IMG/VR virus record: IMGVR_UViG_3300025652_007805
Span: 1-64,000 of that record
DNA length: 64,000 nt
From: a virus
Direction: 5' to 3' (one strand)
Positions 11,083 to 48,224 of this stretch are shown here, in pieces; position 1 is the first letter of the stretch, and each line of letters begins with the position of its first letter. The notes beneath the pieces were generated by a model. The model did not search any database. It was not told where the DNA came from and saw only the letters and a list, made by a program, of their open reading frames with translations. The position numbers were made by a program, and so were the translations under genes.

Positions 11083-14000
11083 CTATTTTAAAACAACATT
11101 AGCATATCCATCAATCTTATCTATATCAATGGTCATGTCTACAACATCTTTTAGTGATTCAAGGTGAGATACGAGCAATACAATCTTAAATTGTGTCTTT
11201 ACCATCTCTAACAAACGAACAAATCCTTCCATGTGCTCGGCATCCAATGCTGTTGCTGGTTCATCAAGCACAAAAAGGTTTCCAACTGGTAAGTTAGTAA
11301 TTGAAATCATACCAAGCCGTATAGCCATAGAAGCCAATGTTTTCTCAGCACCAGAAGCCATAGAAAGAGGTCTTGGGTCATATGCTGGGTGTTTGATAAA
11401 TATATCTAACTTGGAGTCTGTATTATCAAAAAAGACCTCGAAGTCAACAATATTAGCCAGAACTTTTCCTATTTCTTCATTAATAATTGGAAGACGATCT
11501 TTAATAATGTTGTATGAGATTCCATTAGCGTGCATACATCGCATAAACATTTCATAAGCAACCCACTTGTTTTCATAGCCCTTATACTCTTCAAGTTCTT
11601 TCTCGATGTTCTTTATGATTTGGGCGGTTGATCCCTGTTCAATAAGACATTCTTGCAACTGCTCATTACATTTAGTATGTACTTGTCGCAGTTGGGATAT
11701 CTTTGTTTCAAGTGCTTTCTTTTCTCTCGTAAGTGTTCCAAGGTTCTCAATGGCTTCTCTGTTTTCTTCATATTCCGCTTCCTGATTTCTTAAACTTTCT
11801 ATTTGATTCTTTAAAAGATTCAACTTGTCTTTATTAGACGATAGTTCCATAGATTTTATTTCATTTTGATTCTGTAATTGATCAATATCTTGAGAAAACT
11901 TATTGTGTCTCTCAATATTAGAAGTAATCTCTTCTGGATTTATAAAGTTTATTTTTTCTTGTATGTCTGAGACAAACTCTTGTAATTCCTCAATCATTTT
12001 GGTTGTGGGCATTATTTTAGTTGAAGCATCGTGAGCATCTTTTACAAACTGATTGCTTACACAATACTTGCAATTAGGATCATACTGGTGTTCGTCAAGA
12101 AGTTTAACTTTTGATTTTAGATTTTCTAATATTTTTGTTTGTTGATTTAATTTTAATGTTATTATTGACTTTCGTTCTTTATGAGTTTTACAAGTTTCAT
12201 TTAGAGAAACAAGTTGTTCATAATTCAAATCGTCAAGAACCATTTTATATTGTTCTACAAACTCTTCATTATTTAATATTTCTTTTTGAAGGTCGATGTT
12301 TTCATGTAAAATTCTCTTAACACCTTCTTCTTTAGAAACAATATCGGCCTTAACTTTATCAATATCAATTATCTCCGCTGGTATTGAAGATATAATATCT
12401 TCTACTTCTTTTAATTTGCCGGTAAAAGATTCAACTGATTTTGTTGTCTTCTGACATTCTTTTTTCTTATTCTCAATTGCTTCAACTATTTCTTCTAAAA
12501 GTTCTTGGTTTTTGGTTATATCTTCAAGATAATTCTTTGCTTCAAACTTCTTAATTAAAGTTTTAATATCAGCGGAGTCCTTTTTGGCTAATTTAAACTT
12601 CTGATCGAAGATATCCAAGTCAAGGAATTTAGCAATAATCTCTTTCCTCTTCGTCGAACCTTCTTTGATAAACGACAGGGAGTCAAGCTGTGAGGCCATA
12701 GAGGTTAGTAGAAAGTCGTCAATCGTACCAAACTTCCTTCTGATATTAGCATCGGTCTCGTTGCGAGTGGTTCCGTTTAAACTCTCTTCAACTCCACCAA
12801 TTTCTTTTGTAAAATCAAGATCAACCTTTGCTTCAATTGTTTCCTTGCCTTTTAGTTTTCTTGTATACTTGTTCAAATTGCGAGCAATCTTGTATGTCGC
12901 ATTATCTGATTCTATTTCAAGAAGAATTTTGGCATCTTGTTTGTTCTGGTTGATTATGTGGACATTTTTTCTTTCATTTTTAGAAGTTGTATTATACATT
13001 CCGTATAAAACACTATCAATAATAGAAGATTTACCGGAGTAGTTCTTACCAAAAATACCCACGATACCATTAAGTCGATCAAAGTTGATAGTGTTCTTTT
13101 CGCCATAGTTAAAAAGATTGTCCCAAGTCGCACTCTTAAGTTTCCAAATAACATTTCTTGTTATCTCCTCGTTTTCTTCAACGGTTTGATTATATTTTCT
13201 GTTTAATTCCAATACCTTATCCATGATTCCATCATCGAGTTCCATATCTTTAAGGTATTTTCTAATATATTTCTCTTGTACTGTGATATCTCGGAGGTTT
13301 TCTTTCTTTAAAGCATCGGAAAGGTTTGTCTTTTCGTTACCTTTGTAGCTCGTCTTGACACTAAATGAGACACTTATTGGTCGCCACTTAACCTTGGCAA
13401 AATCCATCGCTCTTTTCATTTTAATTGGAGGTATAAGATTAGAACCAATTAAACGCAAGCGACAACCAATAGGAACATCAACTTTGGGCAATTGTCCTGT
13501 CTTAGTTAACACAACGTTAACAAACGGACGAGGGTTGTTAAGCTTATGAAATTTAACCTTAAAATCTGTTTTGTCGTTAATGTGCCACATTAAGTAGCCT
13601 TTATCAACATCCTCTCCAAAGTTCTGCTGAACAGTGGAGCCGCAATATGCTATTGTGCCTGTCTTATTAAGGAACTGCTTCTTATGTATATCTCCGAGCA
13701 TAGCATAATCAAAATTCTTGAATATATCCGAATCATGCTCTCCAAACTCCATGGTATAGCCTAAATCGGTTTGACAATTTGAGATTGCTCCATGGTATAG
13801 GGCGACATTAATCTTGCTATCATCGGTGGGCTGTGTCCAATTTTCTTCGTCAAACACTGAAAGGACATTAAATACTATCTTATCATCGAGTGAAAATTCA
13901 CCGGCATCTTTGAGAAAATGAAGATTAGGGTGCTTTAGTGCTGCGACGATTGGACCAATAGCATCTTCGCGATTAGCATTTTTAAGGTTACCATCGTGGT

Positions 14001-14250
14001 TACCTGCTATAATAATAGTGGGTGCTACATTCGCAAGGTTACTTAAAAACTCTGTTGCAAGAGAAAAATACTCTGGTGATAGTTGTGTCTTTGTGTGAGC
14101 CAAGTCGCCACAATGAACAATATAATCTGGTTGAGATTCTTTCAACTGCTTATAAAGATCAGCAAAGGCTTCACGATATTCAAAATGGTATTTTAAATTA
14201 CGGATATGAGTATCGGCTATATGAGCCAATTTAATTGTCTTGTTATTCAT
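11083..14250 (-). CDS. Mre11-Rad50 (SbcD-SbcC, gp47-gp46) single-chain fusion nuclease
   Basis: A 1055-residue protein joining two subunits that are separate in T4 and in cells. Residues 1-340 are an Mre11/SbcD metallophosphoesterase: HIADTHIR (about 9-16), VHCGDLAH, IIAGNHDGN and ALYHGAISN, later MLGDIHKK. After a linker come Rad50/SbcC parts: Walker A FGKNYSGKSS (about 399-408), long coiled coils, a zinc-hook CKYC (about 725), the ABC signature LSMASGAEKTLAS (about 960) and Walker B LFVLDEPATALD (about 990-1000). All key residues appear intact. It would process DNA ends for recombination-dependent replication and host DNA breakdown. No frameshift or internal start with a good ribosome site is visible at the junction. 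Confidence 0.93.
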   Translation of the reverse strand: MNNKTIKLAHIADTHIRNLKYHFEYREAFADLYKQLKESQPDYIVHCGDLAHTKTQLSPEYFSLATEFLSNLANVAPTIIIAGNHDGNLKNANREDAIGPIVAALKHPNLHFLKDAGEFSLDDKIVFNVLSVFDEENWTQPTDDSKINVALYHGAISNCQTDLGYTMEFGEHDSDIFKNFDYAMLGDIHKKQFLNKTGTIAYCGSTVQQNFGEDVDKGYLMWHINDKTDFKVKFHKLNNPRPFVNVVLTKTGQLPKVDVPIGCRLRLIGSNLIPPIKMKRAMDFAKVKWRPISVSFSVKTSYKGNEKTNLSDALKKENLRDITVQEKYIRKYLKDMELDDGIMDKVLELNRKYNQTVEENEEITRNVIWKLKSATWDNLFNYGEKNTINFDRLNGIVGIFGKNYSGKSSIIDSVLYGMYNTTSKNERKNVHIINQNKQDAKILLEIESDNATYKIARNLNKYTRKLKGKETIEAKVDLDFTKEIGGVEESLNGTTRNETDANIRRKFGTIDDFLLTSMASQLDSLSFIKEGSTKRKEIIAKFLDLDIFDQKFKLAKKDSADIKTLIKKFEAKNYLEDITKNQELLEEIVEAIENKKKECQKTTKSVESFTGKLKEVEDIISSIPAEIIDIDKVKADIVSKEEGVKRILHENIDLQKEILNNEEFVEQYKMVLDDLNYEQLVSLNETCKTHKERKSIITLKLNQQTKILENLKSKVKLLDEHQYDPNCKYCVSNQFVKDAHDASTKIMPTTKMIEELQEFVSDIQEKINFINPEEITSNIERHNKFSQDIDQLQNQNEIKSMELSSNKDKLNLLKNQIESLRNQEAEYEENREAIENLGTLTREKKALETKISQLRQVHTKCNEQLQECLIEQGSTAQIIKNIEKELEEYKGYENKWVAYEMFMRCMHANGISYNIIKDRLPIINEEIGKVLANIVDFEVFFDNTDSKLDIFIKHPAYDPRPLSMASGAEKTLASMAIRLGMISITNLPVGNLFVLDEPATALDAEHMEGFVRLLEMVKTQFKIVLLVSHLESLKDVVDMTIDIDKIDGYANVVLK

Positions 14251-14258
14251 TGAAGTTC

Positions 14259-15710
14259 CTATTGTTCAGGTTTCAGTTTTTTTATCAAGTCGTTTGCTGT
14301 CTTTTTATATTCCTCTATGTCCGTCCAACCTTGTTCTGGGAACATAATATTATTTGGAGCATAGTTTACCAATGGGATTGAGAATCCCGTGTATCGATGT
14401 TTAGTAAACATAACCTTAGAGAACTCGCCTGTCAAGATTAAATTAATAATTTTTCTTGTTATCTCTAGAGAAATTCTTTTTCCTTTTCCGTAACCACCAC
14501 CAGTCCAACCAGTATTAACAAGCCAGCAGTTAATATTGTGTTCTTCTATTTTGTTCTTCAGTAAGTTAGCATATGTATCAACCTTTAAAGGCATAAATGG
14601 TTGTCCGAAACAGGCTGAGAAGGTTGGGACAGGCTCTTTAACACCTTTCTCAGTTCCAGCAACTTTAGCAGTATATCCAAGTTTAAATTGCTGAACTGCT
14701 TCTTCTGTGGATAATTTCATCACTGGCGGTAGAACTCCGAAAGCATCACAAGTCAACATAACAATGTTTTTAGGGTGCTTATTAACATAGCCCATTATAT
14801 GGGAATTGGGCACCACATCCGTTGAATAAGAGGCTCTACCGTTCTCTGTGATGGACCCATCATCAAAGTCGGGCTTACCGTCTTTCATTACAACATTTTC
14901 CAATATCGTTCCTACCGACTTACAAGCATTCCAGATCTCTGGTTCTCCTGTTTCTGAAAGGCGAATGGTTTTAGCGTAACAGCCGCCTTCGATATTTGTA
15001 AGACCATTATCTGTCCAAAGGTGTTCATCATCGCCAATTAAGACTCTATTGGGGTCAGCAGATAGGGTTGTTTTACCTGTGCCTGATAATCCAAAGAAAA
15101 TAGTTGGATTTTCATTGCCCTTATCAACGTTCACAGAACAATGCATTGGTAGAAAGCCTTTACTCGGTGTTAAAAAATTGATAAGAGTAAAAGCCGCTTT
15201 CTTGATTTCACCAGCATAATAAGTTCCAGAAATAAGAATTAACTTTTCTGATACTGAAATCATTACCCTTGGTTCGTCTAAAAGTGACGGCAAGTGTAAA
15301 ATAGTATATATATCAGTGACTTCCGGCGAATCTATAACTTGTTCTTTTGTGATAAACATATTCCTAACAAACTGTGAGTGTCTCGCATATTCCGTATATA
15401 CACGGAATCCAATTGCATGCTCAGGGTCTCTTATTAGAAGAGCGTCTTGTAAGTAAACTTCTTTATCTTTGACTGTGTTTAAGAACTTTCTCTTCATTTT
15501 ATTAAAAGCACCTTTGGTCATTTTTTGATTCTCGGACCAATCTACTTTTGTTTTTGTTTGCTTCTCATTAACAATATACTTTGCTGTTGGGCAGCGACCA
15601 GTATATTCACCAGTATAAGTGACGAGTGCTCCGTCTTCCGTTAAAGAACAACCTTCTTTTTCTATGGCGATCTCTAACAGTTTCGGTGTTTCTAAATTTT
15701 TATAAATCAT
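14259..15710 (-). CDS. pckA: Phosphoenolpyruvate carboxykinase (ATP), EC 4.1.1.49
   Basis: A 483-residue ATP-type PEPCK (cellular enzymes are about 530-540), converting oxaloacetate + ATP to PEP + CO2 + ADP. Visible active-site elements: TGRCPTAKYIV with the substrate Arg near residue 39, YYAGEIKKAAF (metal and substrate Lys, about 165-175), MHCSVNV (metal His), the kinase P-loop GLSGTGKTTLS (about 206-216), GDDEHLW (metal Asp, about 223-229), NGRASYSTD (Arg near 289) and NTGWTGGGYGKGKRI. The reduction in length is spread, not a broken end. Its ATG overlaps the primase stop by 4 bases, and the Mre11-Rad50 gene follows 8 bases later, so it is expressed with replication genes. It probably diverts carbon from the TCA cycle to PEP. 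Confidence 0.95.
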   Translation of the reverse strand: MIYKNLETPKLLEIAIEKEGCSLTEDGALVTYTGEYTGRCPTAKYIVNEKQTKTKVDWSENQKMTKGAFNKMKRKFLNTVKDKEVYLQDALLIRDPEHAIGFRVYTEYARHSQFVRNMFITKEQVIDSPEVTDIYTILHLPSLLDEPRVMISVSEKLILISGTYYAGEIKKAAFTLINFLTPSKGFLPMHCSVNVDKGNENPTIFFGLSGTGKTTLSADPNRVLIGDDEHLWTDNGLTNIEGGCYAKTIRLSETGEPEIWNACKSVGTILENVVMKDGKPDFDDGSITENGRASYSTDVVPNSHIMGYVNKHPKNIVMLTCDAFGVLPPVMKLSTEEAVQQFKLGYTAKVAGTEKGVKEPVPTFSACFGQPFMPLKVDTYANLLKNKIEEHNINCWLVNTGWTGGGYGKGKRISLEITRKIINLILTGEFSKVMFTKHRYTGFSIPLVNYAPNNIMFPEQGWTDIEEYKKTANDLIKKLKPEQ

Positions 15711-16645
15711 AAATTCCTCAAAGCATTAATTAGAAAAAAATTGTCGTAATCTACCGACTTTGCTTGGTTTTTTCTCTCAATAAAAACGTCATGAGACATA
15801 GAACCAACGTCCTCACAACCAGAGGTATCTATTTCAAGCAACTCGATATCATATTGTAGCATATTTTTAACGATTTGTCCAGTCTTTTTTTTCGCGTCTT
15901 CGTCTAAAGCCAAGTAAACTGGTGTATCATTTATCGCAATTGCTTGAAATAGTTTGGTGTTTTCTCGGAGAGTTGAGCCGAGAATAGGAATAGCGTTTTC
16001 CCCAGCCACTATGGCGTCAAAAACTCCTTCTACGAGGATCACCGGACTATCCCAGTCTACAGAAAGTTGATTGAATATTATGTCCTTCTCGGCTGTTGGA
16101 TTGAGATACTTTCTCTGGTGACCAACATACGATCTCGCAATAAAATAATTAACATTTCCGTCGTTGTTAAAAGACGGTATAATTACTCTGCCGCCGAAAC
16201 GACCATCGTCACAATAACCAATCTTCCATTTCAATATTTGTTCTCTGGTTATTCCTCTCAATTGAAGATAGTTGAGAACTCTTTTGGAGGAGTAGGGCAG
16301 GTGCTTGTTACAAAGAGAGATAAATTTCTCTGGTAGTTCAATTACTTGCTCTTCTTCTACATCATTCATTTCTGCGAAGATATTCTCAAATTCGTTTAAA
16401 TCAAGACGACCTTCAAGTTCAAGCCACTTCTGTCGTTGTTGGTATGTTCCAAATTTACGAACAAGACGATAAATGTTCTTGCCGCTAGCAGAACATACCC
16501 AACATTTATAGCAACCTTTCGCAAAATTAACGGACATTTTCTTTTTGTGGTGATTACAAACTGGGCAAGAAAAAATAAACTCGTCTCTAGACTTTCTATA
16601 AGATCCAAGTATATTACAAATAATCTTCTTTTTTTGCTCAAACAT
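15707..16645 (-). CDS. DNA primase, DnaG/gp61-like
   Basis: A 312-residue primase. An N-terminal zinc ribbon has CPVC (Cys 27 and 30) and CYKCWVC (Cys 45, 48 and possibly 51). A TOPRIM catalytic fold follows: VILVEGVFDAIVAG (catalytic Glu, about 200) and VYLALDEDAKKKTG (acidic pair, about 245). It would synthesise RNA primers at the phage fork with a gp41-type helicase that is not in this window. It is close in length to T4 gp61 (342). An AGAGGTGA ribosome site lies 5 bases before the ATG. The gene is first behind the sigma-70 promoter at 16664-16691 and is coupled to PEPCK by ATGA. Confidence 0.9.
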   Translation of the reverse strand: MFEQKKKIICNILGSYRKSRDEFIFSCPVCNHHKKKMSVNFAKGCYKCWVCSASGKNIYRLVRKFGTYQQRQKWLELEGRLDLNEFENIFAEMNDVEEEQVIELPEKFISLCNKHLPYSSKRVLNYLQLRGITREQILKWKIGYCDDGRFGGRVIIPSFNNDGNVNYFIARSYVGHQRKYLNPTAEKDIIFNQLSVDWDSPVILVEGVFDAIVAGENAIPILGSTLRENTKLFQAIAINDTPVYLALDEDAKKKTGQIVKNMLQYDIELLEIDTSGCEDVGSMSHDVFIERKNQAKSVDYDNFFLINALRNL

Positions 16646-16663: not shown

Positions 16664-16691
16664 AACATAACATATTATATTATTTTGTCAA
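16664..16691 (-). promoter_or_regulatory. Sigma-70 promoter for the primase-PEPCK-Mre11/Rad50 operon
   Basis: On the coding strand TTGACA (16686-16691) is followed by 16 bases and TATGTT (16664-16669), with an extended -10 TGT. The -35 overlaps the last codons of the 16688-17302 gene. The -10 is weaker than at 9531 and 18747 (4 of 6). It precedes the primase ATG by about 18 bases and should permit expression by host RNA polymerase early in infection. Confidence 0.75.
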
Positions 16692-17302
16692 GAAGAAACG
16701 ATTATTCTCATAAAGTCATCATACATTGCTGGTAGTGGGAGGGCTTTTTCTACCTCTTCTTTATTTCCATCAGCAATAGCATTTCTTAAGTTTGTGGCTG
16801 ATATTTCATCGGCATTAACTGTAATTGGGGGTAAATCTGTCTGGGCATTGTTATAGTCTTTTGTTATCTTTGCGAACTTCTCTCCACGACCAGCATCTTT
16901 TGATGAGTGACCAAGAGCAAACACCTTGCCTTGAAATAAAGCAGGGTCGGCGTCCTTTACAAAATCAATAGCATCGGCAAATGGATTTTCATACTCTTTG
17001 CCTTTGCTTGAGATTCTTGAAGACGATCTAATCAACTCAACCTTGGGATCTTTGGTAACTCCGTAAAGATCAAATATTTTAAGAGTTTTATCAACATCAA
17101 AAGACATCGTTCCGTCGTCACTTTGTCTCGGAGCAGAACCAACAAACACAAATACCTTCTCGACATCGGGGTGTTCGGCATATTTTCTGATCATTTGAAG
17201 GTGACCTTTATGTGGAGGTTTATACCCACCGGGCAAAAGAATAATATATTTATCTTTTTCTTCGGTTAAGAATCTTCTCCAATTTTCAAACAGTCTTCTC
17301 AT
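16688..17302 (-). CDS. Nucleotidyltransferase of the cytidylyltransferase/NMNAT superfamily
   Basis: A 204-residue protein with the HIGH-type motif GGYKPPHKGHLQMI at about residues 25-38 and the second motif DEISATNLRNAI (ISxTxxR type) at about 168-179. These bind the nucleotide triphosphate in NMN adenylyltransferases and CTP:phosphotransferases. The substrate (NMN, or a phosphorylated alcohol) cannot be decided; phage NAD-salvage enzymes of this superfamily are known. The first 18 residues (MRRLFENWRRFLTEEKDK) are an added amphipathic helix before the catalytic fold, shared in style with the two upstream genes, and may target the protein into the head. A CTATTTAT box lies 21-28 bases upstream. 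Confidence 0.8.
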   Translation of the reverse strand: MRRLFENWRRFLTEEKDKYIILLPGGYKPPHKGHLQMIRKYAEHPDVEKVFVFVGSAPRQSDDGTMSFDVDKTLKIFDLYGVTKDPKVELIRSSSRISSKGKEYENPFADAIDFVKDADPALFQGKVFALGHSSKDAGRGEKFAKITKDYNNAQTDLPPITVNADEISATNLRNAIADGNKEEVEKALPLPAMYDDFMRIIVSS

Positions 17303-31853: not shown

Positions 31854-34800
31854 CTATTCTCCGAAAATCTCTGAAGCGGTTGGGAAGTTTATCGCTGGAA
31901 CAAAACCAGAATCCCCTCCTATAATTACTGACGAACTCAAAATTCCATCTCTTGGCGAATAACCATATATTCTTTGGTTTCCACTTGTAACTGAATAATT
32001 ATTACCTAATGAGGAAGTTACCCAACCATATTGGAAGTCAGATTGGGGTATTGGTGAGTTCACAAAAGCATTATCAAAATTATCCGTAAGGACCGGGGAT
32101 AACACCGTTGAGTTATCCGCTGGTATTTTTCTTCCGTTTCTTTGAATCTTATGAAAATTAGGAACAACGACATAACTTTCAGCAACAGGATTAGCGTGTT
32201 GCGAATCTGCTCCAAACTGACCGCAGTGTCTTCTTAAAAGTGTTTGTAAGCCTTCACGATAGTTGTTTTGACTGTTCATTCGGATTGTACCGGCTTCGCC
32301 ACTTCCAGAAGAACGAACAGTATAATTTCTATAATTTAAATTATTATATACTGAGTATTCTCTCGCATAAACATCAAGGTATCCGAGGGAATTTACTTCG
32401 ATACCGCCGGGTGCGGAAAATCGTGAAGTAATGATTGTGTTTGTAACCGACGATGTAATGACGGCATTAACTACATCTAAGGCACTTCTTGTATCTCCAC
32501 CTGTTGAGGAGCCACCATCGACAGCCACAAATGTTCTATAACTGTTTCCGGGGTCTGGGACAGGGGTATAGCCAGAAGCTTGAATTTCAAGCAAAGAATC
32601 GCCAGTGCTAGATGTGATTCCTATTGTCGCCTTACCAACAGAAGGAACATCGGCATAGATATTAAAAGAATAATTTGTATTAAAGTAAGAGTCTGCTTGA
32701 ATAGCACCGGTAACATTTGCAAAAAATTCAGCATTAGAGGAGCCAGTTAATATAGCATTTGAACCGGGAGTTACTCCCCCACCAAGTTCTATTTCAATTA
32801 TAACAGATGCTCCTGCAACATTTGCGATTCTCAATCGGTCTGCATCAACAACGGAAGAACTTGTTTCTATAATAAAAGATCCGCTGTGTAATACTTCTGT
32901 TGTTGGTACGACTACTAACGAACCTGTGTCTGGTTGCCTGTTATTTTGATAAACACCAAAAACATTCCCCGAAACAAATGGTGCTTGTCCAAATAAGGAC
33001 ATTGGGTGTGTTGTTTCTGGTAGGATTGAGCCAATTGAAGTCGGTAGATAAAGAGACTGTTCTGGGTTCTTGACCAAATATAGGTTGTTTTCGTGCTTTC
33101 CGAAGCTTTGAACAATTTCGTGATTTTCTTTGTAGTTTCCGTGAGTAAAGAAAGGACTTCCGCCAGTATTTGTTTTAATATTTTTAATATTAACTGGTCT
33201 TTTTGCTCTTTCTTCTCGATAGTATGTTGCACCTTTTCTTGCAGGGTCGGGATATGGGCTACCATAGTCTGCCCCTACGAACCCAAAAGCACCGTCAGAT
33301 CCAGTATATTCACTGAATAATATTTGCCATGCTTCTTCGCGTGTATATTCATCATGGAGACCATTTAGAGGAGCAAGTCCAGTTTCATCAGACAACCTAA
33401 GTGAATCATAATAATTCAAATCTACATGACGATGTTGATGACCGCCGACCCAATTTTGAGTAAATGAACCTTGCATTGGGATTTCATTTGTATAATCTGT
33501 CGTGTCGGAATGAATATTTGTTATAATCGACTCGCTGTGAAAATGTTCTGCCACAACCGCATTATACCCTGAATTAACCGAACCTGATATGATATTGACA
33601 GGCATTTTTTCTGATCCAAATGTGAAATAATAAGAATCATTTTCGCTGCTTGGTCCACTTGGGTGGACTAAATCATTTGTATATTTTCCAACATATCCTT
33701 CTACATTTGTTCTTTTTTTCAAATTAGGGCTTACTGGATCGTCACATTGTTTTGGATCAATGATACCTTTTCCAGTTCCTGAACCTACCAAAAAAGTATT
33801 TAAAGGAACACCAGAATCACTAATTGCACCGGCCCTATCAACAAGATTGTGGATGATGTTTCTATCTTTATTTGGTGGATAATTTATACCACCATGAATT
33901 ATATGTTTTAAAATCTTTTCCAACCTATAGGGCTTAGAAAGCGTCCTAAAAACATAAGCGGAGCCTTGATAAGTTGAACCGTTTGTTTGAAAAAAGTTAG
34001 GTAATTCAGAGTCACTGTGTTTATTGATAGATTTTCTTATTGTTTCGCGATCCGATAAATCTGTTCTTTCTTTTCTTTCTTTTTGCCATAAACAATTATT
34101 ATTATCTCCGCCTTCGATTGGAGCATGGCCTGTTTTCCAATTATAATTTAATTCTGCTTGACCTTTTGCCGAGCCTTCGGTTGAAGCATATCTTGTTGTA
34201 ATTGGAAACTTATTTTGATATTTGTTTCTTTCCAAAACATGACTATCGATAACGTTTGTCACACCGCCGGAGAAACGAGCACTTACAGGAAACAGGTCCT
34301 CTATAATACGAGAGATTGAAGTATCAATCCATTTAAAGTATTCCATATAACGGTCAAGGTCAGGTGTACCGCTCACTCTTTCAAAAAACAATCTTCTCAA
34401 GACACTTAAGTCTTTATATTCCATTCGATATTTGTCTACTGGTTTTCCAACAAGGTTACTGAATTCTGTTATAGAAGAGAACATATTTAAGATTTCTTCA
34501 GAAATTGATTGATACATGCTTTTCTCAAGAGCATAAAAATTATCAGATACATCTTCGTCTTTTACAAAAAATACTTCTTTATCACCCTTTACATTTACAT
34601 TATCCGATATAACAGAGATTTCTGGTAGCTCTTTCTTTTGAGAGAAAATAAATTCATTGGAAACAAAAGAAGTTTTGCTTGTTCCAAAATTAGCACCTCG
34701 TCCTCTATGTTCGCGACGAATAATATTGTCTATCCAACCATAAATTGTATCAGTTGATCCACTCGAAAAGTCTTCTACTATAAAATCACCACTAGAATTA

Positions 34801-37544
34801 GAACCAGTGACTGTATCGAAATTCCAATTTATTGCTAATAAATCAGCACTTGGAATAGATGCAGATAGTTGATATGCAAAAGCAGTAGGCGGCCTAATAT
34901 CTTCACCAGATCCGTAATTTGAAGGGTCGAGATTATGCTGCTGTATGATTGACTTATTTAGATAATCTTCATATAATCTAAAAGAGCCAATTTGTATATC
35001 TGATCTTTGATCTACCGCGCCAGTAAAGTTTGTTGTATGAGCACCAACATAAAATCTCTTTGTATTAGAAAGAAAACTAGATCCGCTAGCATAGTCTAAA
35101 CTAGCAGTCAATAAAAATTCGGATCTTACAACATCAAAATCATGATTTACGCCATAAAATTCTATCGTATATGTTGGGTTTGTTGTAGATATTATATTTC
35201 CAACCAATTCATATTTATCGGGCCTCACACTAACTGCAAGGTTCCACCTTTGATTGTCATAAATGTCAGATACCATGCTAGAAGTTAATTCTATTGTTCC
35301 AGATTGATTTTTTATAAGAAATTTAGCATTTTTAGATTCTCTTTCTTCGCGAACCAAGTATATTTGCAAGTTGGCTATTTCACTTGTAACCCAAGTATAA
35401 TCATCAACATCAGTGGGAATTGCTTCGTGAAAACCAAAGATTGATGAAGATAGAAATGTTGTTTGAAAATACCCACTTTTGTGCTCTGGTATCTTAAAAG
35501 GAACAATGATATCTGCTTCTGCTGTAAATGCAGAATATCTTTCTAATTTTTCAGTACCAGAGCCAGAGACAAACGTATTTGTGCTACTTACCGAAGAAGT
35601 CTGATATATGGTTGACGGGAAATAATTTGGATCATTAAAGTTTATATATTTTGTATTAAGAGAAGATCGTTTTGTTTTATCATTAAAATAGTGTGTACCA
35701 CCATCGGTATAAATATTTAACTTTATAAGCTCGTCGTCAACACCAAAACTACGAAGAAGGTTTCTTACTGATTTTTCGGTTCCCTTGGATTTATAAATGT
35801 GTTCTAAGTTGTTGTAAATGTTAGTATAAATGAGATTTTTAACTTCTGATATGTCTTTCTCATAAATAACTTGATTAGAATCTCTATCACCAAATCTTTC
35901 CAAAATTTTAGAATCTACAAAAAGATTATTAACAGTTATTCCTCTCTCTGTAAGCAGTCTATCTGCAAATGGGAGCGGCTTTTTATCGGATTCAATATAT
36001 TTCTTTTCTTTTAACTTTGGTATCTCTGTAATTTGTGCATGTAATGTGTCGAAATAGTTTGATATAATTTGAAACAAATATTTAACATTATTATTACTCG
36101 CTTCGTCTTCTTCCCGAATCCAGCTTGGAACACTATTGAATATCATGTTTCCATTTTCTTGATCCCAATCAGAACCAGAAGTTTGCATTTCAGAAAGAAT
36201 ACTAACAACATTAGGATGTGTGCTATAAATAATAGGGTCGGCGACCTCAGAGGAAACGAGACCTGATTCAGTAAATGCAGAATCGGTTGAGCGAGCACCA
36301 GAAGAATAACCAGTCCAAGAGCCATTTGCAATTCGACCAGAATAATCTAGTACAACAGAGTCTGTCGCTGAAGCTCCAACAACACCTTCATTAAATTTAT
36401 AATAAACACCAAGTTTTACATTTGCATCGTCTGTGTTGGTTCCTCCACCGATGCCGCGATACCAATTGTTGTGAATTTCTTCTGAGGTTCTCCGAGTTTT
36501 CCAAAAGCGGAAATCATCAAGAGAAGCAGAAAGTTTACCAGCGAACTTTAATTGATTTATTGTAAGAGCACCGACACTGGAGGAAGGAGAAGCCTGTAAA
36601 GCTCCAATATATCCGTTAACCAATCCTGAGAAGTCACCGAATCCTGTTGTTCCCAATGTTCTCTCGTCGTCTAAATTACCATTTTGATATAGCCGAGAAG
36701 TGATCCCAGAAGAGGCAGAAACAAGGCTTAGAGCATAATGTGACCAGTTTGCGAGCGATCCGGTAGTGATATTAGACGAGCCAATAAGTTGCTCAAAAAC
36801 TCCCGTAGAGCCCGATTGTAGGGTAATTCTAAATGGTTGATTTGAGCCTGCGCCAGCACCGGGCGAACTTGTAAGATTGAGAGTTAAGCGACCATAATCA
36901 GCCGATGAAGATAATTCTCCATTCCAAAGGTCAAGAATAACTTCTTTCTCTGTTTTTGCAATATCGAAGGCACTCTTTTTAAGCCAAAATTCAATCGTGA
37001 CTCCTTCGGAGCCGTTAATATCATAAGTGATAGTTCTATTTTTTGTAGAATCATAAACAACTGATTTATCAAATGTTTCTCGTAATGGCTTACCTTCCAT
37101 TCCAGCAGAAGCTGTGTGCATTCCACCGCGAGAATAAATATATTCGTAATCTGCTACGGCATTAGGGAGCCCATATCCATCGGTTATAGAAGCAGCGGTT
37201 CCCCACCCTCCATAAGAAAAATTAACATATCCCGTTGTCTTTGGATATTTGTTATCAAAAACCCACTTATCAAGATATGACGAGGACAATTCAAACAATA
37301 TTTTTTCTTTCTCGGACCCATCATACGGATAATCTCCGTAAATCCTTTCTATTGTTTGAGTATAATATTCATAAGCAGAACCGTATTTAGCAAAGTTGGA
37401 AGCCGTTGCAAAATCAACACTTGGTTGAAAGGTTTCATTTTGAACAATTTTTGTGTTAATAAAATCAAATGATTCAACAGCGGAACTACCGGTTGTTGCA
37501 TTTTCAAAAGTTGCTGATTTGTTAAAAAGGTCTTTAATACTCAT
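31854..37544 (-). CDS. Giant virion protein with LamG/concanavalin-like domain
   Basis: A 1896-residue protein. Residues about 175-390 form a laminin-G-type (LamG_3) jelly roll: GVTIEFWLKKSAF, NWSHYALSL, NGYIGALQASP, GKLSASLDDFRFWKTRRTSE and KLGVYYKFNEG are the hallmark strands. Later regions are Ser/Asn/Tyr-rich and beta-patterned, with another YxxxxFxV-type jelly-roll-like block near 700-900 (QRWNLAVSVRPDKYELVGNI; GSFRLYEDYLNKS). LamG folds bind glycans, so adhesion is plausible. It overlaps the 37534-39096 gene by 11 bases. A fibre or host-recognition role is inferred. Confidence 0.8.
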   Translation of the reverse strand: MSIKDLFNKSATFENATTGSSAVESFDFINTKIVQNETFQPSVDFATASNFAKYGSAYEYYTQTIERIYGDYPYDGSEKEKILFELSSSYLDKWVFDNKYPKTTGYVNFSYGGWGTAASITDGYGLPNAVADYEYIYSRGGMHTASAGMEGKPLRETFDKSVVYDSTKNRTITYDINGSEGVTIEFWLKKSAFDIAKTEKEVILDLWNGELSSSADYGRLTLNLTSSPGAGAGSNQPFRITLQSGSTGVFEQLIGSSNITTGSLANWSHYALSLVSASSGITSRLYQNGNLDDERTLGTTGFGDFSGLVNGYIGALQASPSSSVGALTINQLKFAGKLSASLDDFRFWKTRRTSEEIHNNWYRGIGGGTNTDDANVKLGVYYKFNEGVVGASATDSVVLDYSGRIANGSWTGYSSGARSTDSAFTESGLVSSEVADPIIYSTHPNVVSILSEMQTSGSDWDQENGNMIFNSVPSWIREEDEASNNNVKYLFQIISNYFDTLHAQITEIPKLKEKKYIESDKKPLPFADRLLTERGITVNNLFVDSKILERFGDRDSNQVIYEKDISEVKNLIYTNIYNNLEHIYKSKGTEKSVRNLLRSFGVDDELIKLNIYTDGGTHYFNDKTKRSSLNTKYINFNDPNYFPSTIYQTSSVSSTNTFVSGSGTEKLERYSAFTAEADIIVPFKIPEHKSGYFQTTFLSSSIFGFHEAIPTDVDDYTWVTSEIANLQIYLVREERESKNAKFLIKNQSGTIELTSSMVSDIYDNQRWNLAVSVRPDKYELVGNIISTTNPTYTIEFYGVNHDFDVVRSEFLLTASLDYASGSSFLSNTKRFYVGAHTTNFTGAVDQRSDIQIGSFRLYEDYLNKSIIQQHNLDPSNYGSGEDIRPPTAFAYQLSASIPSADLLAINWNFDTVTGSNSSGDFIVEDFSSGSTDTIYGWIDNIIRREHRGRGANFGTSKTSFVSNEFIFSQKKELPEISVISDNVNVKGDKEVFFVKDEDVSDNFYALEKSMYQSISEEILNMFSSITEFSNLVGKPVDKYRMEYKDLSVLRRLFFERVSGTPDLDRYMEYFKWIDTSISRIIEDLFPVSARFSGGVTNVIDSHVLERNKYQNKFPITTRYASTEGSAKGQAELNYNWKTGHAPIEGGDNNNCLWQKERKERTDLSDRETIRKSINKHSDSELPNFFQTNGSTYQGSAYVFRTLSKPYRLEKILKHIIHGGINYPPNKDRNIIHNLVDRAGAISDSGVPLNTFLVGSGTGKGIIDPKQCDDPVSPNLKKRTNVEGYVGKYTNDLVHPSGPSSENDSYYFTFGSEKMPVNIISGSVNSGYNAVVAEHFHSESIITNIHSDTTDYTNEIPMQGSFTQNWVGGHQHRHVDLNYYDSLRLSDETGLAPLNGLHDEYTREEAWQILFSEYTGSDGAFGFVGADYGSPYPDPARKGATYYREERAKRPVNIKNIKTNTGGSPFFTHGNYKENHEIVQSFGKHENNLYLVKNPEQSLYLPTSIGSILPETTHPMSLFGQAPFVSGNVFGVYQNNRQPDTGSLVVVPTTEVLHSGSFIIETSSSVVDADRLRIANVAGASVIIEIELGGGVTPGSNAILTGSSNAEFFANVTGAIQADSYFNTNYSFNIYADVPSVGKATIGITSSTGDSLLEIQASGYTPVPDPGNSYRTFVAVDGGSSTGGDTRSALDVVNAVITSSVTNTIITSRFSAPGGIEVNSLGYLDVYAREYSVYNNLNYRNYTVRSSGSGEAGTIRMNSQNNYREGLQTLLRRHCGQFGADSQHANPVAESYVVVPNFHKIQRNGRKIPADNSTVLSPVLTDNFDNAFVNSPIPQSDFQYGWVTSSLGNNYSVTSGNQRIYGYSPRDGILSSSVIIGGDSGFVPAINFPTASEIFGE

Positions 37545-41321: not shown

Positions 41322-44300
41322 CTATCTTTTTATATTAAATAATCCACCGAACTGATTTTGACACTCTTTGCCTTCTTTATCTGTTGGTTTATTTGGTTTT
41401 ATTCTTCTTCTGGTCAACCAAGATACTTCCTCGGTGAGTGCTGTAGCGGCATATGACTTTGCAAGGGCTTTTTGTGCTACTAATGATAATTCATCAATTT
41501 CTTCTTCTTCGTTTGGAGGGTCAAAATCATTTCTTTTATAATTTGATACAAAAATCTTTCTACACTCACTTCTTGAATCATTGAAAAAGTCCGAACGATC
41601 GTCTGCGTCTGGTAAATCAATATCACCTCCAAACAAATCAGCAAATACAGATATATCTGGTTCTCTTCGTTCTCCTTGTCCTAAGCCAATCGATGGAACG
41701 AAATTTAAATCAGAATAACAAGCAAGGGCTGATCCTATTTTTTTAACATTCAATATCTTGTTAAGAATTAAATTATACTCTTCAGATTGTGCAAGTCCAT
41801 CGATAAAACATTTTAGATCTTGATTGAAATCTTCTGTTGCTGTTTTTAACGAAGATAGTTTTACATCAATAATATCCTTTTCATATGTTGCAAGGGGGAA
41901 ATGCAAACATCGACCAACACTTGGCATATTGATAGCAAAAGTTCTTTCTTGTTTTGATTTCTCCATTATTTCTGATAAATCTGATCTTGTTAATAAATTA
42001 ATATTATTTATGAGTTCTTCTGGTGCTATATAAACAAGCCTGACTCCAAACTTGATTCCAATTGATCCAGTATAACCCTCTTCGACTTCAGAAGAAATTT
42101 TAGCATCGCCAAACCAATCAGAAATATTAACATCGTCCGGTATTTCCTGTGTATTTAGGAAATCAATAAATTCTTGTATATTTTGGATCCCAGAAGGAAG
42201 ATTATCTGGTCTTGAAACAGCGGTTGCTTCAGCAATTTGTCCCGGTGTTTGCGCAACTGTTAAGCCCAATATACTTGTGGATTCTGGTATTTTTGGAACA
42301 GCCCTTAAATATTTTTCCAAATAAAGTCCACCCGATTGTTTGATGTTTTGTTTTTCTTGAGAGGATAAAGAATTCTCAAGAAGTCGGTTGACTCCATCAT
42401 CTTGGGCACAATGATTTATGGTTCCATAATATTCTGTTGAAGATTGTGTAGTTTGATCTATACCAGAAGTCCCACCAATGGGAACCTCAACATCGTATAT
42501 ACCGGCTCTAATATTATTTCCATAAAGTACTTTAGAACCTCCGATAAAGAATTTATTAATGTCATAAATCAAAGGTCTTGGGTTTAATTCGGAAGCCAAT
42601 TTTGTAGAGTAAAACTGAACCTGTTCTCTGATTAGTCTCTTCAAAAACACTTTACAAGACTCTTCGTTCTCTGCTATTGTTGCTATTTTTGCAGAAAAGT
42701 TCATTTGTGCTTGGGTCCAAAATCTAAATCCACCGCCAAACATTATTGTTATTTTGTCTTGCTCGTCTCCAAAGTCATCGGCAATTGTTTGAAAAAAGCC
42801 AGTTTTAAGAGTTTTATTCCAATCTTTTGTGTTTCTAGAGATTAAATAGCCGCCAACTGCTGGGTATGCATATACATCGTCAAAGTCATTTCTAGCAGCA
42901 TTTAAAAACTCTGATACATTTTGAGGGGGAGGAGAAATCTGTATTTTAAAAGCATTATCAAATAAAGCACCGGTATCTCTTGAGGGCTTCACATATGCTA
43001 TCTGAGCATTGTTTATTGTTTCCATTGCTACTTCTGTTTCCGCATCAACAGTCATTTCTCCAAGTTTTATTTTTCTATTATAAACTTGAGCACATTGTTC
43101 TAAAAATAATAGCCAGTATGTGTAACCTTCATAAGTTGAAGCAAAGAAACTTCTTTCATTTGATAAACCTTGCTCCATTTTAGAAACTATGTATTCATAA
43201 ATTAATTCTTCATAATTGTTATTATTTAAAGCCAAATTGCCATGAATCCCAAAAGAATTAATAATAAAATGTGTTAAATATACTCTTATTGTTGCAGTGA
43301 TTGATTGTTCCAATGCAGCGAGAGTTGCTGGTGAGGCTATTTTTTCAAAAGGTATTTCATCAACACATTCAGGAGATTGTGATAACTTTTCACTTGGCTT
43401 TATCTTATCTTCTTTTGTAGCCATTTCGTTTTCCAATTGTTCTAATTGAAGAAAATTAGTAGCCCTTGGATTGCAGCCATCAATATTTGGGACTAATATT
43501 TTACTAAAAGCAAGCCACCCACGGGGTAAGTCGGGCTCTATATAAATGTTTGGTGTCTCATAGGTTCCTCCGTGCTTTAAGGGATCTAAGAATTTAACTC
43601 TTGGGTTGTTCGTTAAACTTCTTCCCAAGACGGCTTCGTCTTCGTCATATGTATAATCTGTCGCACCAGGGAGAGGATTTACATAAGTTAAATCGTCAAC
43701 TGTTATGAGTTTCTGGTCTGAGCCGCCGTGAACAAATCCATTTGAAATGTTTCCATTTTCATCGCTCAAAATACTGTTTTTAAAATCACCAAATAATATG
43801 TTATTAATATTTCTAACAATATTTCCTATTTCTTCTATTGGAAGATCAAGAGTATCAGAAATAACTGTAAGTTTAGATTCCAAGTAATTTTTAAGAATAT
43901 AGTTTTTATAATTATTGCTCAAGTTACCTGGTGTGGGGTCATAAGATAGTTCTGTGTTTGATGGGACAAACTCACTTATAAACTGTGTTTCGCTGGGTGT
44001 GTTTATATTTTCAACAATAATATCTTTCATTGGAGGAACAGTATAAGTGCCTTGTCCCATAGAAAAACTATAATTAAAATTATTATTGTGATATTGTTGT
44101 CCTTGAACTTCAACAGGGTAAGAATCTTCTAAAATAAGTTTTGTGATATATCTATCTGAATACTGTAATCCATTCTCATAATCAAGAAATACTTTTAAAT
44201 CCTGACCGTAAAACAAATTGGAATTAAGGAGTTTAGCTCTCATTTGAGCACCAACAGTTTCTGGGAAGGGTGCCTCATTATCAAAAAGACCAATAACACA

Positions 44301-47300
44301 AAGTAATCTGAAAAATAAGTTGTTTCTTACTCTCATATGTTTAGCATAATTGTATCCAATTGAATCTGCTGTTATCATCAATAAGATTCCAATTGAATCA
44401 GTAAATTCAAAAGGGTTCTCTTCTACTGTATCGTCAATGAAAGCCTTTTGAAGACGAGCGAAAGCACCTTTTGCTAGTTGTTCTTTTTGTTTTTCTAATT
44501 CTTCTGGTGTCTTCAATAAAGACTTGTCAACTGAACAATCGGGATCAGGAGGGGCAAACAAGTTGTCTATTTCGTCTTGTAGAATACCCTCTGGTCCTTT
44601 TGCAAGTATATCTGCGAGATCTGCTAAATCGGATCTTGCTCGGTCTCTTTGATTATCAACAAAATCATTAGCAATATTTGGATCCCCAATTTGATTAGCA
44701 TAAATTACTTTCAAATTATTATAGTATTCTTTTGCTTGGTCATTTGTCAAACAAATGCTTGGATCTAATGGAAAGAATTGTTGCGGATCAGCAGCGATTG
44801 CAGCGGCTCTTTCTCTTTGTTCTTCTGATAGATAGTTACCGGCTGATTGCAGCACACTATCTAAGCCATTTGAGGTTCCAAGCGTTGAGGCATAGTCTGG
44901 GTGTACTATCCCTATTGTTCTTGATACGTTTTCAAGAAAGTTTGGATCCGCTTGTCCCGTCATTGCTTTTAAATAATCTTGTTCTGATCCAAGAGTGGAT
45001 AGTGTTTCAAGAACTTCTTTTGGTGTTGTTGTTCCTCTCTTTGGGGCACCACTTAAAGAAAACAATTTATCTACACTTTTATCTTTCTCGTCGCTATCTA
45101 ATTGGTCTCCACAAACAGCATCAGAAAGTATCTCTGTGATTGAGCGATCAAATCTTCCACCACTTCGAGAGGCAAAATATAAATCTTGTGTAAGTTCGCT
45201 AGAAAAAGTTAATGCTTCACAGATTCCCGCTTCAAGTGCTTGTATCGATTTTAACATCAAAGCGGAAACAATTTGAGAAGTTGTTTTTTTGAACGCAAAC
45301 ATAAATGCGTCTTTAAAACTTCCCCAAACATCATACAAATCAGGGAGTTGTTTTAATTGCGGTAAAGAAAACGGTCTTGTTTTTCCTTTGCCGCAAGCAC
45401 CAAGTGTAAATGTTCCCAAAAACTCGTCTATTGGAGGATAAGCGAAAGAATATTTTGGACAATCAAAAGAAGCAAAAAACTCTCCAACAATAGAAGCACC
45501 TGGTAGTTTTTCTAATCCAGTTAAAATTTCTTGAACTGAGGCATTTTCAATAATGGCGTTTCCATATGCTCTCATCAATTCCTTCTGGACATTTCCAACG
45601 GCTCTACCGTAAGTTCCTTGTCTTACTTTATCCCCTTCTTGAATGGAGGCATAATCTAGTTTTTGCTTTTCCTTGTCTATAATCTTTTGTTGCTCTTCGG
45701 GTGTTTTATCAGCAAAACCAATCGTATCAGAATTCGTTTTGAGTTCTTCTAAAGCCCTGTCTTCTGATTCGGCTAACTGTTGTTTTATACTTGCTTCTTG
45801 TGCTTCAAGTTCGGTTATTTTTCTCTGTTTATCGGCTTCCCATTGAGATTCTTCAATGGGAACGAATTTTGCATCTTTTGCAGCCTCTAATTCCTGTTCA
45901 GCGGTAGCCAATGCTTCAATTGCTTGTTGTTCGTTTGCCTCAGCCTGTTCGTATCTCGTCTGGGCGGTATCTCTTATTTGTGAAGCGGTATTGATTGTGG
46001 CTTGTGTATATGCGGTGTCTAATGCTTCTTCATAATTTAGTTGTGCTTCTGTTAATTCTTGTTCTCTGATTCTGACTTGTCCAGAGGCTGCTGCTGCTTG
46101 TATTCTTAATTCTCCGACCCTACTTTCTTTTCTCGCTATATTTTCTGATTTTTTATCGTTTTCTGCTCCAAAGTCCTGCAAATATTTAAGGAATGTTGAA
46201 TTTCTAACATCGGTTAATTCTGCCTGTACCACTGGTAATTGTGCGTTTAATTCATCAAAAGTAGTATATACTGCGGCACTTTGATTTATATTCTCTTGGG
46301 CTTGTCTATCATATGCAGCCTCAACATTACCTGGGTCGTATCCAACTTCCCACGGAGCAGGCAAATCTTTAAATTCTTTTTCAACTGTTTCTCTGACTTT
46401 CCGTTGTTTATCGGCAGGTAAGCCAGATAAAAGGATTTCCATACCTTCTGTTGTTACAGAGCCCATTAAACCTTTGATAATCTCTCTATAACCTTCTTCC
46501 ACAGTCATACCAGACAAGAGACACTGGACTCCTTTAAGAGTTAACTTTCTCCAGTTACAGGGGTTTATCTTATCAAATAGCTTGGCTAATTTGCTATCGT
46601 CTATATCTTGTGTGCTTTTGATATCTTTTATCTTTTTGTCTTCTGTTAGACCTTTTTCTTTTAAAGTTCTTTTTTCTTGCTCTTTCCGAGCCTTTTCAAG
46701 TTTCTTTAGATCTTCTTCGCTTGAAAATACCGTTATCTTGCCCTTGTCTTTATCTGATAGGAGACGGCAATTATTTTTATTAAATTGATATGCGAGCGAT
46801 TCAAAGAAACTCATTGATGAGTTCAAAATAGCATCGTCAAGATCAGAAAATTTATCTAACAAACAGCCAAATGCATTTGACTTTGCGTCCAAAGAACTAC
46901 CATAATTTACTGATACAGCGGGAAAAGTGTGCTCTACAATAAAATCTATCCAAGGTGGATTCTTTTTAGCATCAACTTGTGTTCTGATTTCATCATAATT
47001 TGCTATATAACCCATCAATGTTTGGTCAAAAAAACCAATATGTCTGATATTGTCTCCAACTGGCTGTTCAGGGTTTGGTTCTGGTGGGAGTTTTAGTATA
47101 ACCTCTTTGCAACCAACAGGTTTTATTGTAATTGTGTCTGCTAATTTAAAAGGTCTATTTTCATCAGACTTATCAAATTTTAATTCTATCTCTTCAATGC
47201 TCTTTGAACTCTCAAACGAAAGGACCGCACCAAGGGAGGAATAGTAATCATATCCCTTTGATTCTAAAAACTTTGATAGCAGGTCTTCAAACCTCTCAAA

Positions 47301-48224
47301 TCGACCAGACATAAATTTAGCATAAAACGGGACCTCTTCTCCTTCCACAAGTTGAAATAATCTTCCGTCTTCTGTGTGTTTAAAATAAGACTGGAATTTT
47401 GAAAACAATACAAAAATTGATTCCATTTTAGCAATCCAAGTTGTAAACTCTGGTACTTTAAACTTTACTGATTCTATGTTTGTGTCTACCTCGGAAATAA
47501 CCGGGGCTTTTGGAACTTGATCAAAAATGTGAGCAGGGATCGTTACAAGAACAGCCATCATACCATTTGCAGCACCATAAAAATGATAATCAGCAGATAA
47601 TGCAAATAATTCAAGTGCATTATAGTTGTCTATAGTCGGCAAACTTTCTATATCTTGTTGTTCTTTTCTTGCCCATTCATAAAACGAAACATCAGAATTT
47701 AATGAAGCATAGTGTTTTCTCTGTCTGATATATTTTTTTGCTTCAGTGGTTGTAAAAATAGAACAGTTATCATTAGCACAAACTAGTTCGTCACTTTCTA
47801 ATTTACCATAATGCCGAAGCATTGATCGAATACCGGGTTTTACAAAACTTCTTTTAATTCTATCAAATTTTTCGTCATTCTTTATTTGTTGTTGTTCAGC
47901 CATTTGTGAAGAGACAGCACTCATAGGGGCTGATAGCGGTATACCAGATTCTGCTATTGAGATAGTCGTTCCCTGTACGGGATCTAAAATGTTTTTCAAA
48001 TCACTTAATCTATAATTATCGCCGCTTTGGTTGACAAAGACAGCGACGGAGTATTCACAAGTCTTTTCATTTAACCATGGTTCTGTTTGTTTCCACCACT
48101 CTGGTGGGATATAAGAAGGGCTTGGGACACAAGTGGGGCACACCCTATCAATTGTTTGCTCTTCGGGCAATACAATTTCACAAGGATCTTGTTGTATATT
48201 TATAAATTTTGATTTATTAGCCAT
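41322..48224 (-). CDS. Giant (2300-residue) baseplate or tail structural protein with coiled-coil domain
   Basis: The longest gene in the window. The N-terminus has clustered Cys (PCEIVLPEE, then VCPTCVPSPSYIPPEWWK). A long charged coiled coil fills about residues 640-860 (VVQAELTDVRNS; EQELTEAQLNYEEALDTAY; EQQAIEALATAEQELEAAKD). The remaining domains are mixed alpha/beta with NFNYSFSMGQGTYTVPP and many Cys-containing segments (RCLHFPLATYEKDI). No enzymatic motif is seen. It sits between the 311-residue protein and gp25, inside the baseplate module. A scaffold-like hub or wedge component is likely, but no homologue can be named. Confidence 0.75.
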   Translation of the reverse strand: MANKSKFINIQQDPCEIVLPEEQTIDRVCPTCVPSPSYIPPEWWKQTEPWLNEKTCEYSVAVFVNQSGDNYRLSDLKNILDPVQGTTISIAESGIPLSAPMSAVSSQMAEQQQIKNDEKFDRIKRSFVKPGIRSMLRHYGKLESDELVCANDNCSIFTTTEAKKYIRQRKHYASLNSDVSFYEWARKEQQDIESLPTIDNYNALELFALSADYHFYGAANGMMAVLVTIPAHIFDQVPKAPVISEVDTNIESVKFKVPEFTTWIAKMESIFVLFSKFQSYFKHTEDGRLFQLVEGEEVPFYAKFMSGRFERFEDLLSKFLESKGYDYYSSLGAVLSFESSKSIEEIELKFDKSDENRPFKLADTITIKPVGCKEVILKLPPEPNPEQPVGDNIRHIGFFDQTLMGYIANYDEIRTQVDAKKNPPWIDFIVEHTFPAVSVNYGSSLDAKSNAFGCLLDKFSDLDDAILNSSMSFFESLAYQFNKNNCRLLSDKDKGKITVFSSEEDLKKLEKARKEQEKRTLKEKGLTEDKKIKDIKSTQDIDDSKLAKLFDKINPCNWRKLTLKGVQCLLSGMTVEEGYREIIKGLMGSVTTEGMEILLSGLPADKQRKVRETVEKEFKDLPAPWEVGYDPGNVEAAYDRQAQENINQSAAVYTTFDELNAQLPVVQAELTDVRNSTFLKYLQDFGAENDKKSENIARKESRVGELRIQAAAASGQVRIREQELTEAQLNYEEALDTAYTQATINTASQIRDTAQTRYEQAEANEQQAIEALATAEQELEAAKDAKFVPIEESQWEADKQRKITELEAQEASIKQQLAESEDRALEELKTNSDTIGFADKTPEEQQKIIDKEKQKLDYASIQEGDKVRQGTYGRAVGNVQKELMRAYGNAIIENASVQEILTGLEKLPGASIVGEFFASFDCPKYSFAYPPIDEFLGTFTLGACGKGKTRPFSLPQLKQLPDLYDVWGSFKDAFMFAFKKTTSQIVSALMLKSIQALEAGICEALTFSSELTQDLYFASRSGGRFDRSITEILSDAVCGDQLDSDEKDKSVDKLFSLSGAPKRGTTTPKEVLETLSTLGSEQDYLKAMTGQADPNFLENVSRTIGIVHPDYASTLGTSNGLDSVLQSAGNYLSEEQRERAAAIAADPQQFFPLDPSICLTNDQAKEYYNNLKVIYANQIGDPNIANDFVDNQRDRARSDLADLADILAKGPEGILQDEIDNLFAPPDPDCSVDKSLLKTPEELEKQKEQLAKGAFARLQKAFIDDTVEENPFEFTDSIGILLMITADSIGYNYAKHMRVRNNLFFRLLCVIGLFDNEAPFPETVGAQMRAKLLNSNLFYGQDLKVFLDYENGLQYSDRYITKLILEDSYPVEVQGQQYHNNNFNYSFSMGQGTYTVPPMKDIIVENINTPSETQFISEFVPSNTELSYDPTPGNLSNNYKNYILKNYLESKLTVISDTLDLPIEEIGNIVRNINNILFGDFKNSILSDENGNISNGFVHGGSDQKLITVDDLTYVNPLPGATDYTYDEDEAVLGRSLTNNPRVKFLDPLKHGGTYETPNIYIEPDLPRGWLAFSKILVPNIDGCNPRATNFLQLEQLENEMATKEDKIKPSEKLSQSPECVDEIPFEKIASPATLAALEQSITATIRVYLTHFIINSFGIHGNLALNNNNYEELIYEYIVSKMEQGLSNERSFFASTYEGYTYWLLFLEQCAQVYNRKIKLGEMTVDAETEVAMETINNAQIAYVKPSRDTGALFDNAFKIQISPPPQNVSEFLNAARNDFDDVYAYPAVGGYLISRNTKDWNKTLKTGFFQTIADDFGDEQDKITIMFGGGFRFWTQAQMNFSAKIATIAENEESCKVFLKRLIREQVQFYSTKLASELNPRPLIYDINKFFIGGSKVLYGNNIRAGIYDVEVPIGGTSGIDQTTQSSTEYYGTINHCAQDDGVNRLLENSLSSQEKQNIKQSGGLYLEKYLRAVPKIPESTSILGLTVAQTPGQIAEATAVSRPDNLPSGIQNIQEFIDFLNTQEIPDDVNISDWFGDAKISSEVEEGYTGSIGIKFGVRLVYIAPEELINNINLLTRSDLSEIMEKSKQERTFAINMPSVGRCLHFPLATYEKDIIDVKLSSLKTATEDFNQDLKCFIDGLAQSEEYNLILNKILNVKKIGSALACYSDLNFVPSIGLGQGERREPDISVFADLFGGDIDLPDADDRSDFFNDSRSECRKIFVSNYKRNDFDPPNEEEEIDELSLVAQKALAKSYAATALTEEVSWLTRRRIKPNKPTDKEGKECQNQFGGLFNIKR

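Follow-up and report, generated by a model that had tools for sequence, protein, structure and literature searches.

Does the long open frame at 11083-14250 on the minus strand of this viral DNA encode a genuine single-chain form of the Mre11 nuclease and the Rad50 ATPase, and how far is such an arrangement shared by related phages? The stretch analysed here, referred to below as the window, comprises 64,000 nucleotides of an IMG/VR virus record.

Domain organization of the fused protein

The frame begins with ATG and extends over 1055 residues with no internal stop codon. It matches the Metallophos (calcineurin-like phosphoesterase) domain at residues 7-189 (Pfam, E 1.3e-12) and an SbcD-like profile at residues 1-362 (PHROGs, E 5.5e-34), followed by the AAA_23 ATPase domain at residues 378-606 (Pfam, E 9e-12) and an SbcC-like profile at residues 309-1049 (PHROGs, E 1.7e-51); its sequence matches in the PDB are mostly to Rad50, SbcC, SMC and Mre11/SbcD chains. 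The calcineurin-like fold, capping domain and metal ligands of Mre11/SbcD are present, as are all the Rad50/SbcC features, namely Walker A and B, the signature, the Q-loop, the His switch and a long coiled coil. An earlier sequence-only reading had proposed a single open polypeptide with a nuclease followed by an ATPase bearing a zinc hook, which is borne out by the ORF, the Pfam and PHROGs matches and the motifs. Its boundaries (nuclease 1-340, ATPase from 385) were slightly off, as the structural model gives nuclease plus cap at about 1-298, a helix-loop-helix at 322-360 and Rad50 from about 368. The features are as follows, with the basis of each assignment in brackets.

11083..14250, minus strand: Mre11-Rad50 (SbcD-SbcC) fusion, 1055 aa (ATG-started single frame, Pfam, PHROGs, independent contigs)
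13537..14250, minus strand: Mre11/SbcD nuclease domain, residues 1-238, with D13, H15, D49, N84, H85, H153, D187 and H189 (Pfam, motifs, fold)
13357..13536, minus strand: Mre11 capping domain, residues 239-298 (model secondary structure; fold alignment to SbcD 7dog_A)
13171..13287, minus strand: helix-loop-helix, residues 322-360, presumed Rad50-binding element of Mre11 (model helices 322-336 and 340-360)
13150..13170, minus strand: short link between the Mre11 and Rad50 parts, residues 361-367 (without regular structure in the model)
12616..13149, minus strand: Rad50 N-lobe with Walker A GKNYSGKS (401-408) and Q521 (Pfam, motifs, Rad50 fold matches from 365-369)
12052..12090, minus strand: zinc-hook apex, residues 721-733, CxxC (C727, C730) (coiled-coil helix break at 721-733; motif)
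11086..11442, minus strand: Rad50 C-lobe with signature SGAEK (966-970), Walker B (D996, E997) and His switch (H1029) (motifs; PDB Rad50 matches at about 940-1051)
15707..16645, minus strand: primase, upstream of the fusion (phrog_47, E 1.7e-41)

An AlphaFold2 model of the fusion, for which 40 own and IMG/VR sequences served as input, has a mean pLDDT of 82 and a pTM of 0.47, so that the individual domains are good and their relative placement is unreliable; residues 299-321 form a weakly predicted link between the capping domain and the helix-loop-helix. The nuclease-cap part (fusion residues 5-298) aligns with Staphylococcus aureus SbcD (7dog_A; Z 24.8, rmsd 3.2, 275 residues), the best among the fold alignments to SbcD/Mre11 chains over approximately residues 1-300, and the alignments to 3tho_B and 6s6v_A extend to fusion residues 364 and 359, respectively. 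The Rad50 part aligns with Escherichia coli SbcC (7yzo_D; Z 23.6, rmsd 3.9, 338 residues).

Motif conservation was scored across 88 distinct fused proteins drawn from 91 fused ones, a set that includes the window protein and that of locus L009 (one protein differing in leading residues) and three proteins without the first nuclease motif. D13, H15, D49, N84, H85, H153, D187 and H189 never vary where their column is filled, with D187 present in all 88; position 86 is D except for a single E, and position 52 is H in 86 of the 88 and S once. In the window protein, accordingly, His 52 replaces the third Asp of GDxxD and Asp 187 replaces the first His of HxH (the position of Pf Mre11 His206), so that the earlier statement that all motifs are kept is nearly right: it holds for the ATPase and hook motifs, which are intact, and fails at these two residues.

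The fused frame could additionally give rise to a Rad50-only product, and with it surplus ATPase, by initiation at ATG343 or TTG347 near the junction. Both codons are preceded by weak Shine-Dalgarno-like matches (-3.3), near the -3.9 of the real fusion start, but weaker than the median of -5.2 over 34 gene starts; furthermore, Met is found at position 343 in 25 of the 88 fused proteins, and a start at 343 or 347 would cut through the helix-loop-helix of the model. Such a product is thus unlikely, and weak internal initiation at the junction, if any, is no conserved feature. The claim that there is no internal ribosome site at the join is mostly right, the qualification being these weak matches, and the 1:1 stoichiometry that had been suggested follows from the single chain; a restricted geometry of the 2:2 complex, suggested alongside it, may be a further consequence.

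Genomic neighbourhood and probable function

The window fusion lies near T4-type head genes, encoding the portal, the terminase large subunit and the prohead protease, and also near a baseplate wedge gene; these head-gene neighbours identify the window as the DNA of a tailed phage. A primase gene is found upstream of the fusion in 57 of the 60 loci, among the best-ranked 80, that have at least 1.2 kb of upstream sequence. A complete gene for an ATP-type phosphoenolpyruvate carboxykinase (14259-15710, minus strand; Pfam E 4.3e-171), with no match to a PHROGs family, is situated between the primase and the fusion. It recurs in L005/L015, L008 and L009, yet in only one of the 80 loci L015-L094, and eight records match it in the phages collection; coverage reaches 80% or more in four, namely two Salmonella strain records, Staphylococcus phage UPMK_1 and an uncultured phage of 636 kb. 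Further upstream of the primase is a cytidylyltransferase-like (nucleotidyltransferase) gene (16688-17302, minus strand), and very long open frames occupy 31854-37544 (1896 aa) and 41322-48224 (2300 aa), also on the minus strand. A tRNA scan of the 64,000-nt window found none.

We propose that the fusion is very probably the only DNA-end-processing complex of the phage, a chain of the R555 type (see below) that would serve replication and repair as the counterpart of T4 gp47/gp46. Its sequence, folds, motifs, conservation as a fusion and synteny with primase are direct observations, and the fusion is the sole match in the 75,096-base virus record, which may be an incomplete genome. Two chains most likely dimerise to give an M2R2 complex, in which the Rad50 lobes, binding ATP, would clamp the DNA ends that the Mre11 domains trim, and the zinc hook would join the coiled coils. 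The trimmed product would then be used in recombination-dependent replication of the phage genome and in its repair. PADLOC matches (e.g. LmuB, 2e-22) and the presence of a Lamassu chain (9hqx_B) among the Foldseek matches could instead point to an SMC-nuclease acting in defence or counter-defence. However, the strong PADLOC matches extend over the Rad50 half alone, a consequence of the fold common to SMC and Rad50 proteins, and a defence system was rejected as the main reading on this ground; phage SbcC and SbcD are also the better profile matches, and the gene has a conserved place near primase and head genes. These points make a role in defence very unlikely.

Prevalence of the fused form, probable re-splitting and hook diversity

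A scan of IMG/VR with the single protein recovered nine distinct loci, each open across the stretch covered. These include L009 (100% identity, on a 76,463-base contig), L005 (93%) and L006, L007 and L008 (71-72%), all of which are open over the stretch corresponding to the fusion; the absence of a frameshift, for which the sequence-only reading had sought confirmation from independent sequence, is hence confirmed. In a scan with a full-length alignment, both halves lie in one ORF in all 80 relatives (the best 80 of at least 401). As such a query favours fused forms, we scanned with a nuclease-only alignment as a check, and this sample was likewise selected (the best 80 of at least 587). Here 67 of the 80 are complete fusions and a further 10 read from nuclease into Rad50 in frame before being cut later (nine by the contig end, one by an internal stop), leaving the junction open in 77; two end with the contig before the junction, and one (L260) is broken within the nuclease domain. 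Among the 80 loci kept from genome contigs one is fused (L095), and it agrees with the IMG/VR virus L065 in both length and range. The fused form is the rule in this phage group among the relatives examined, and the single chain looks like the usual form of Mre11-Rad50 in a large group of aquatic phages.

A sequencing or assembly error that deleted a stop between two ordinary genes has a negligible probability and was rejected, since independent contigs of 71-100% identity and the best-ranked relatives of both alignment scans (80/80 and 77/80) run uninterrupted through a junction whose sequence is itself conserved, and since no support for it was found, the breaks in a few relatives falling elsewhere (L213 near the hook; L260, L002 and L190 in the nuclease domain).

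In three of these loci the nuclease domain is interrupted at about one place, near residue 196 and just past the GDIH/GDVH motif (L002:5665-6582, L260:6678-6739, L190:4973-5053). The gap in L002 holds an ORF with a match to an HNH endonuclease PHROG; Rfam gave a single match to this interrupted region, at 14.8 bits and under its gathering score, and no intron family was found there.

A related group encodes the nuclease and Rad50 as separate genes. It comprises L098, a Prochlorococcus single-cell contig identical to L175 of IMG/VR, and 15 other IMG/VR contigs (L176-L190). The nuclease ORF is 272-273 aa long in 15 of the 16 IMG/VR loci and broken further in L190, and its alignment to the fused profile stops near residue 263, the conserved part stopping earlier. 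The first 125-165 residues of the partner Rad50 genes, ahead of the ATPase lobe, match residues 256-362 of the window protein, that is, the remainder of the cap and the helix-loop-helix. In profile comparisons, 14 distinct Rad50 N-termini of this group matched residues 200-368 with a probability of 93 (E 2.5e-7) and, against the full-length fusion, landed on 256-362 (E 2.5e-6), as against E 0.33 or worse for three control segments. At E 0.01 these N-termini were missed by a plain HMM covering the cap and the helices, and the evidence for a split within the capping domain is thus at the level of profiles. In the model, strands 243-247 and 264-269 of the capping domain flank the break. A similar split, with the two genes on opposite strands, occurs in L096, a phage-like contig assigned to a Mycoplasmatota MAG.

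The relationships of these forms were assessed from a reduced tree of 33 sequences (10 of 42 fused representatives, five of eight re-split, all six phage separate-gene pairs, 10 of 15 cellular and both others) and from FastTree on all 73; L190 was excluded because its nuclease gene is broken. The 33-sequence tree separates the window clade, L003, PTm1 and the re-split group from the phage separate-gene, cellular and phiXF1 sequences (99/99). Within the former, it pairs PTm1 with L003 (78.6/58) and unites both with the re-split group (94.4/58), whereas FastTree joins the re-split group to L003 (0.968) with PTm1 outside. The simplest reading is a fusion followed by a new split inside the capping domain; in view of the weak inner branches and the disagreement over PTm1, this order of events is likely, short of proven.

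The zinc hook also varies among these proteins. A C-x6-C-type hook (PC[GS]...CxF[IV], a pattern that permits a spacing of 6 or 7) is predicted in 48 of the 88 fused proteins; the others comprise 28 with the CxxC hook of the window type, four with another CxxC, four with C-x7-C, three with GCKC and one of another kind. Hook class changes approximately 15 times on a tree built without the hook, against an average of 34.5 over 300 shuffles, none of which gave fewer than 29, and differs also between the window protein and L008, which are 72% identical. The fusion genes of L023 and L026 are nearly identical and yet differ in hook class, the divergent region spanning about residues 685-790. Their proteins are 94-98% identical in bins over residues 1-680 and 90-100% over 861-1055, but 66, 36 and 54% in the bins 681-709, 710-745 and 746-780; likewise, at the DNA level 30-codon blocks are 78-100% identical except for four consecutive hook blocks at 64, 40, 71 and 74%. 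This pattern is consistent with what recombinational replacement of a cassette looks like, and a search within the set of fused proteins found no close donor. An assembly chimera could also account for the difference in that one pair, but hook class switches elsewhere in the tree too. As judged from these sequence comparisons, the zinc hook acts as an exchangeable cassette.

Taken together, these observations suggest a fluid Mre11-Rad50 architecture in aquatic phages, to which we give about an even chance: an ancestral fusion, one group re-split in the capping domain, which leaves the part of Mre11 that would bind Rad50 encoded by the Rad50 gene, and recombining hook cassettes that include C-x6-C. 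If this is true, the hook would be a swappable module for dimerisation specificity. The re-split and the cassettes are less expected than the fusion and carry most of the remaining interest, and a literature search of limited depth found no report of either. The re-split group is a natural experiment on which part of Mre11 has to accompany Rad50, and the cassettes provide naturally occurring alternatives for the dimerisation end.

Comparison with known systems

The novelty of the fusion, implied by the sequence-only reading, does not stand: the fused form is common among relatives, and Yoshida, Claverie and Ogata had already described Mre11/Rad50 chains of this kind in 2011 (PMC3175470), namely R555 of Mimivirus together with twelve more, found in eukaryotes, in bacteria (in part on plasmids) and in Bacillus phage 0305phi8-36. 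A plasmid search for the published Clostridium kluyveri and Deferribacter fusions gave 50 records, all with less than 80% coverage of the query, and neither genus was among the counts listed. In the published description, the same authors argued that R555 homologues in aquatic metagenomes are abundant and viral, some probably belonging to phages, and noted phage-type primase genes on some of the scaffolds (PMC3175470). As 57 of the 60 relatives with enough flank carry a primase upstream, the window gene fits this predicted group, and taken alone it extends a known family.

The window gene is an R555-type fusion by its motifs, domain order and fold ranking, R555 being compared by its published description. 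That description gives R555, also a viral protein, the same domain order in one chain and the same two departures from cellular Mre11 at the metal site, GDxxH in place of GDxxD and an Asp where Pf Mre11 has His206 (PMC3175470). R555 differs in its length (1351 as against 1055 aa) and comes from an amoeba virus, whereas the window derives from a tailed phage whose portal, terminase and prohead protease are T4-like. In BFVD, the folds closest to the window protein belong to long DNA-repair proteins from giant viruses other than Mimivirus, namely Tupanvirus (1379 aa, E 2.1e-60), Harvfovirus, Yasminevirus and Catovirus, accompanied by proteins of the Tenacibaculum phages pT24 and PTm1. The top ten comprise six named giant-virus proteins, two of Tenacibaculum phages and two others, a ranking that favours long targets; read with that bias, it would place the window fusion nearer to the fusions of giant viruses than to relatives with two genes.

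Among cultured phages, the same order of nuclease and then Rad50 in one chain is seen in Microcystis phage Mel-JY01 (WWT39521.1, about 30% identical to the window protein) and, more distantly, in Tenacibaculum phage PTm1 (ORF-075) and Xanthomonas phage phiXF1 (phiXF1_71, 951 aa). The last falls outside the window clade on a long branch, and may thus represent an independent fusion event. Describing the window protein as a useful natural single-chain model is fair, but the shorter phiXF1_71 and other cultured-phage fusions already exist; as the single chain is usual in a large aquatic phage group, compact Mre11-Rad50 chains of 951-1055 aa are available for structural work. T4 gp47/gp46 and bacterial SbcD/SbcC share folds, motifs and a presumed role with the window fusion, but are encoded by separate genes rather than as one chain, and in the tree the window protein groups with fused viral proteins, apart from the T4-type and cellular pairs (99/99).
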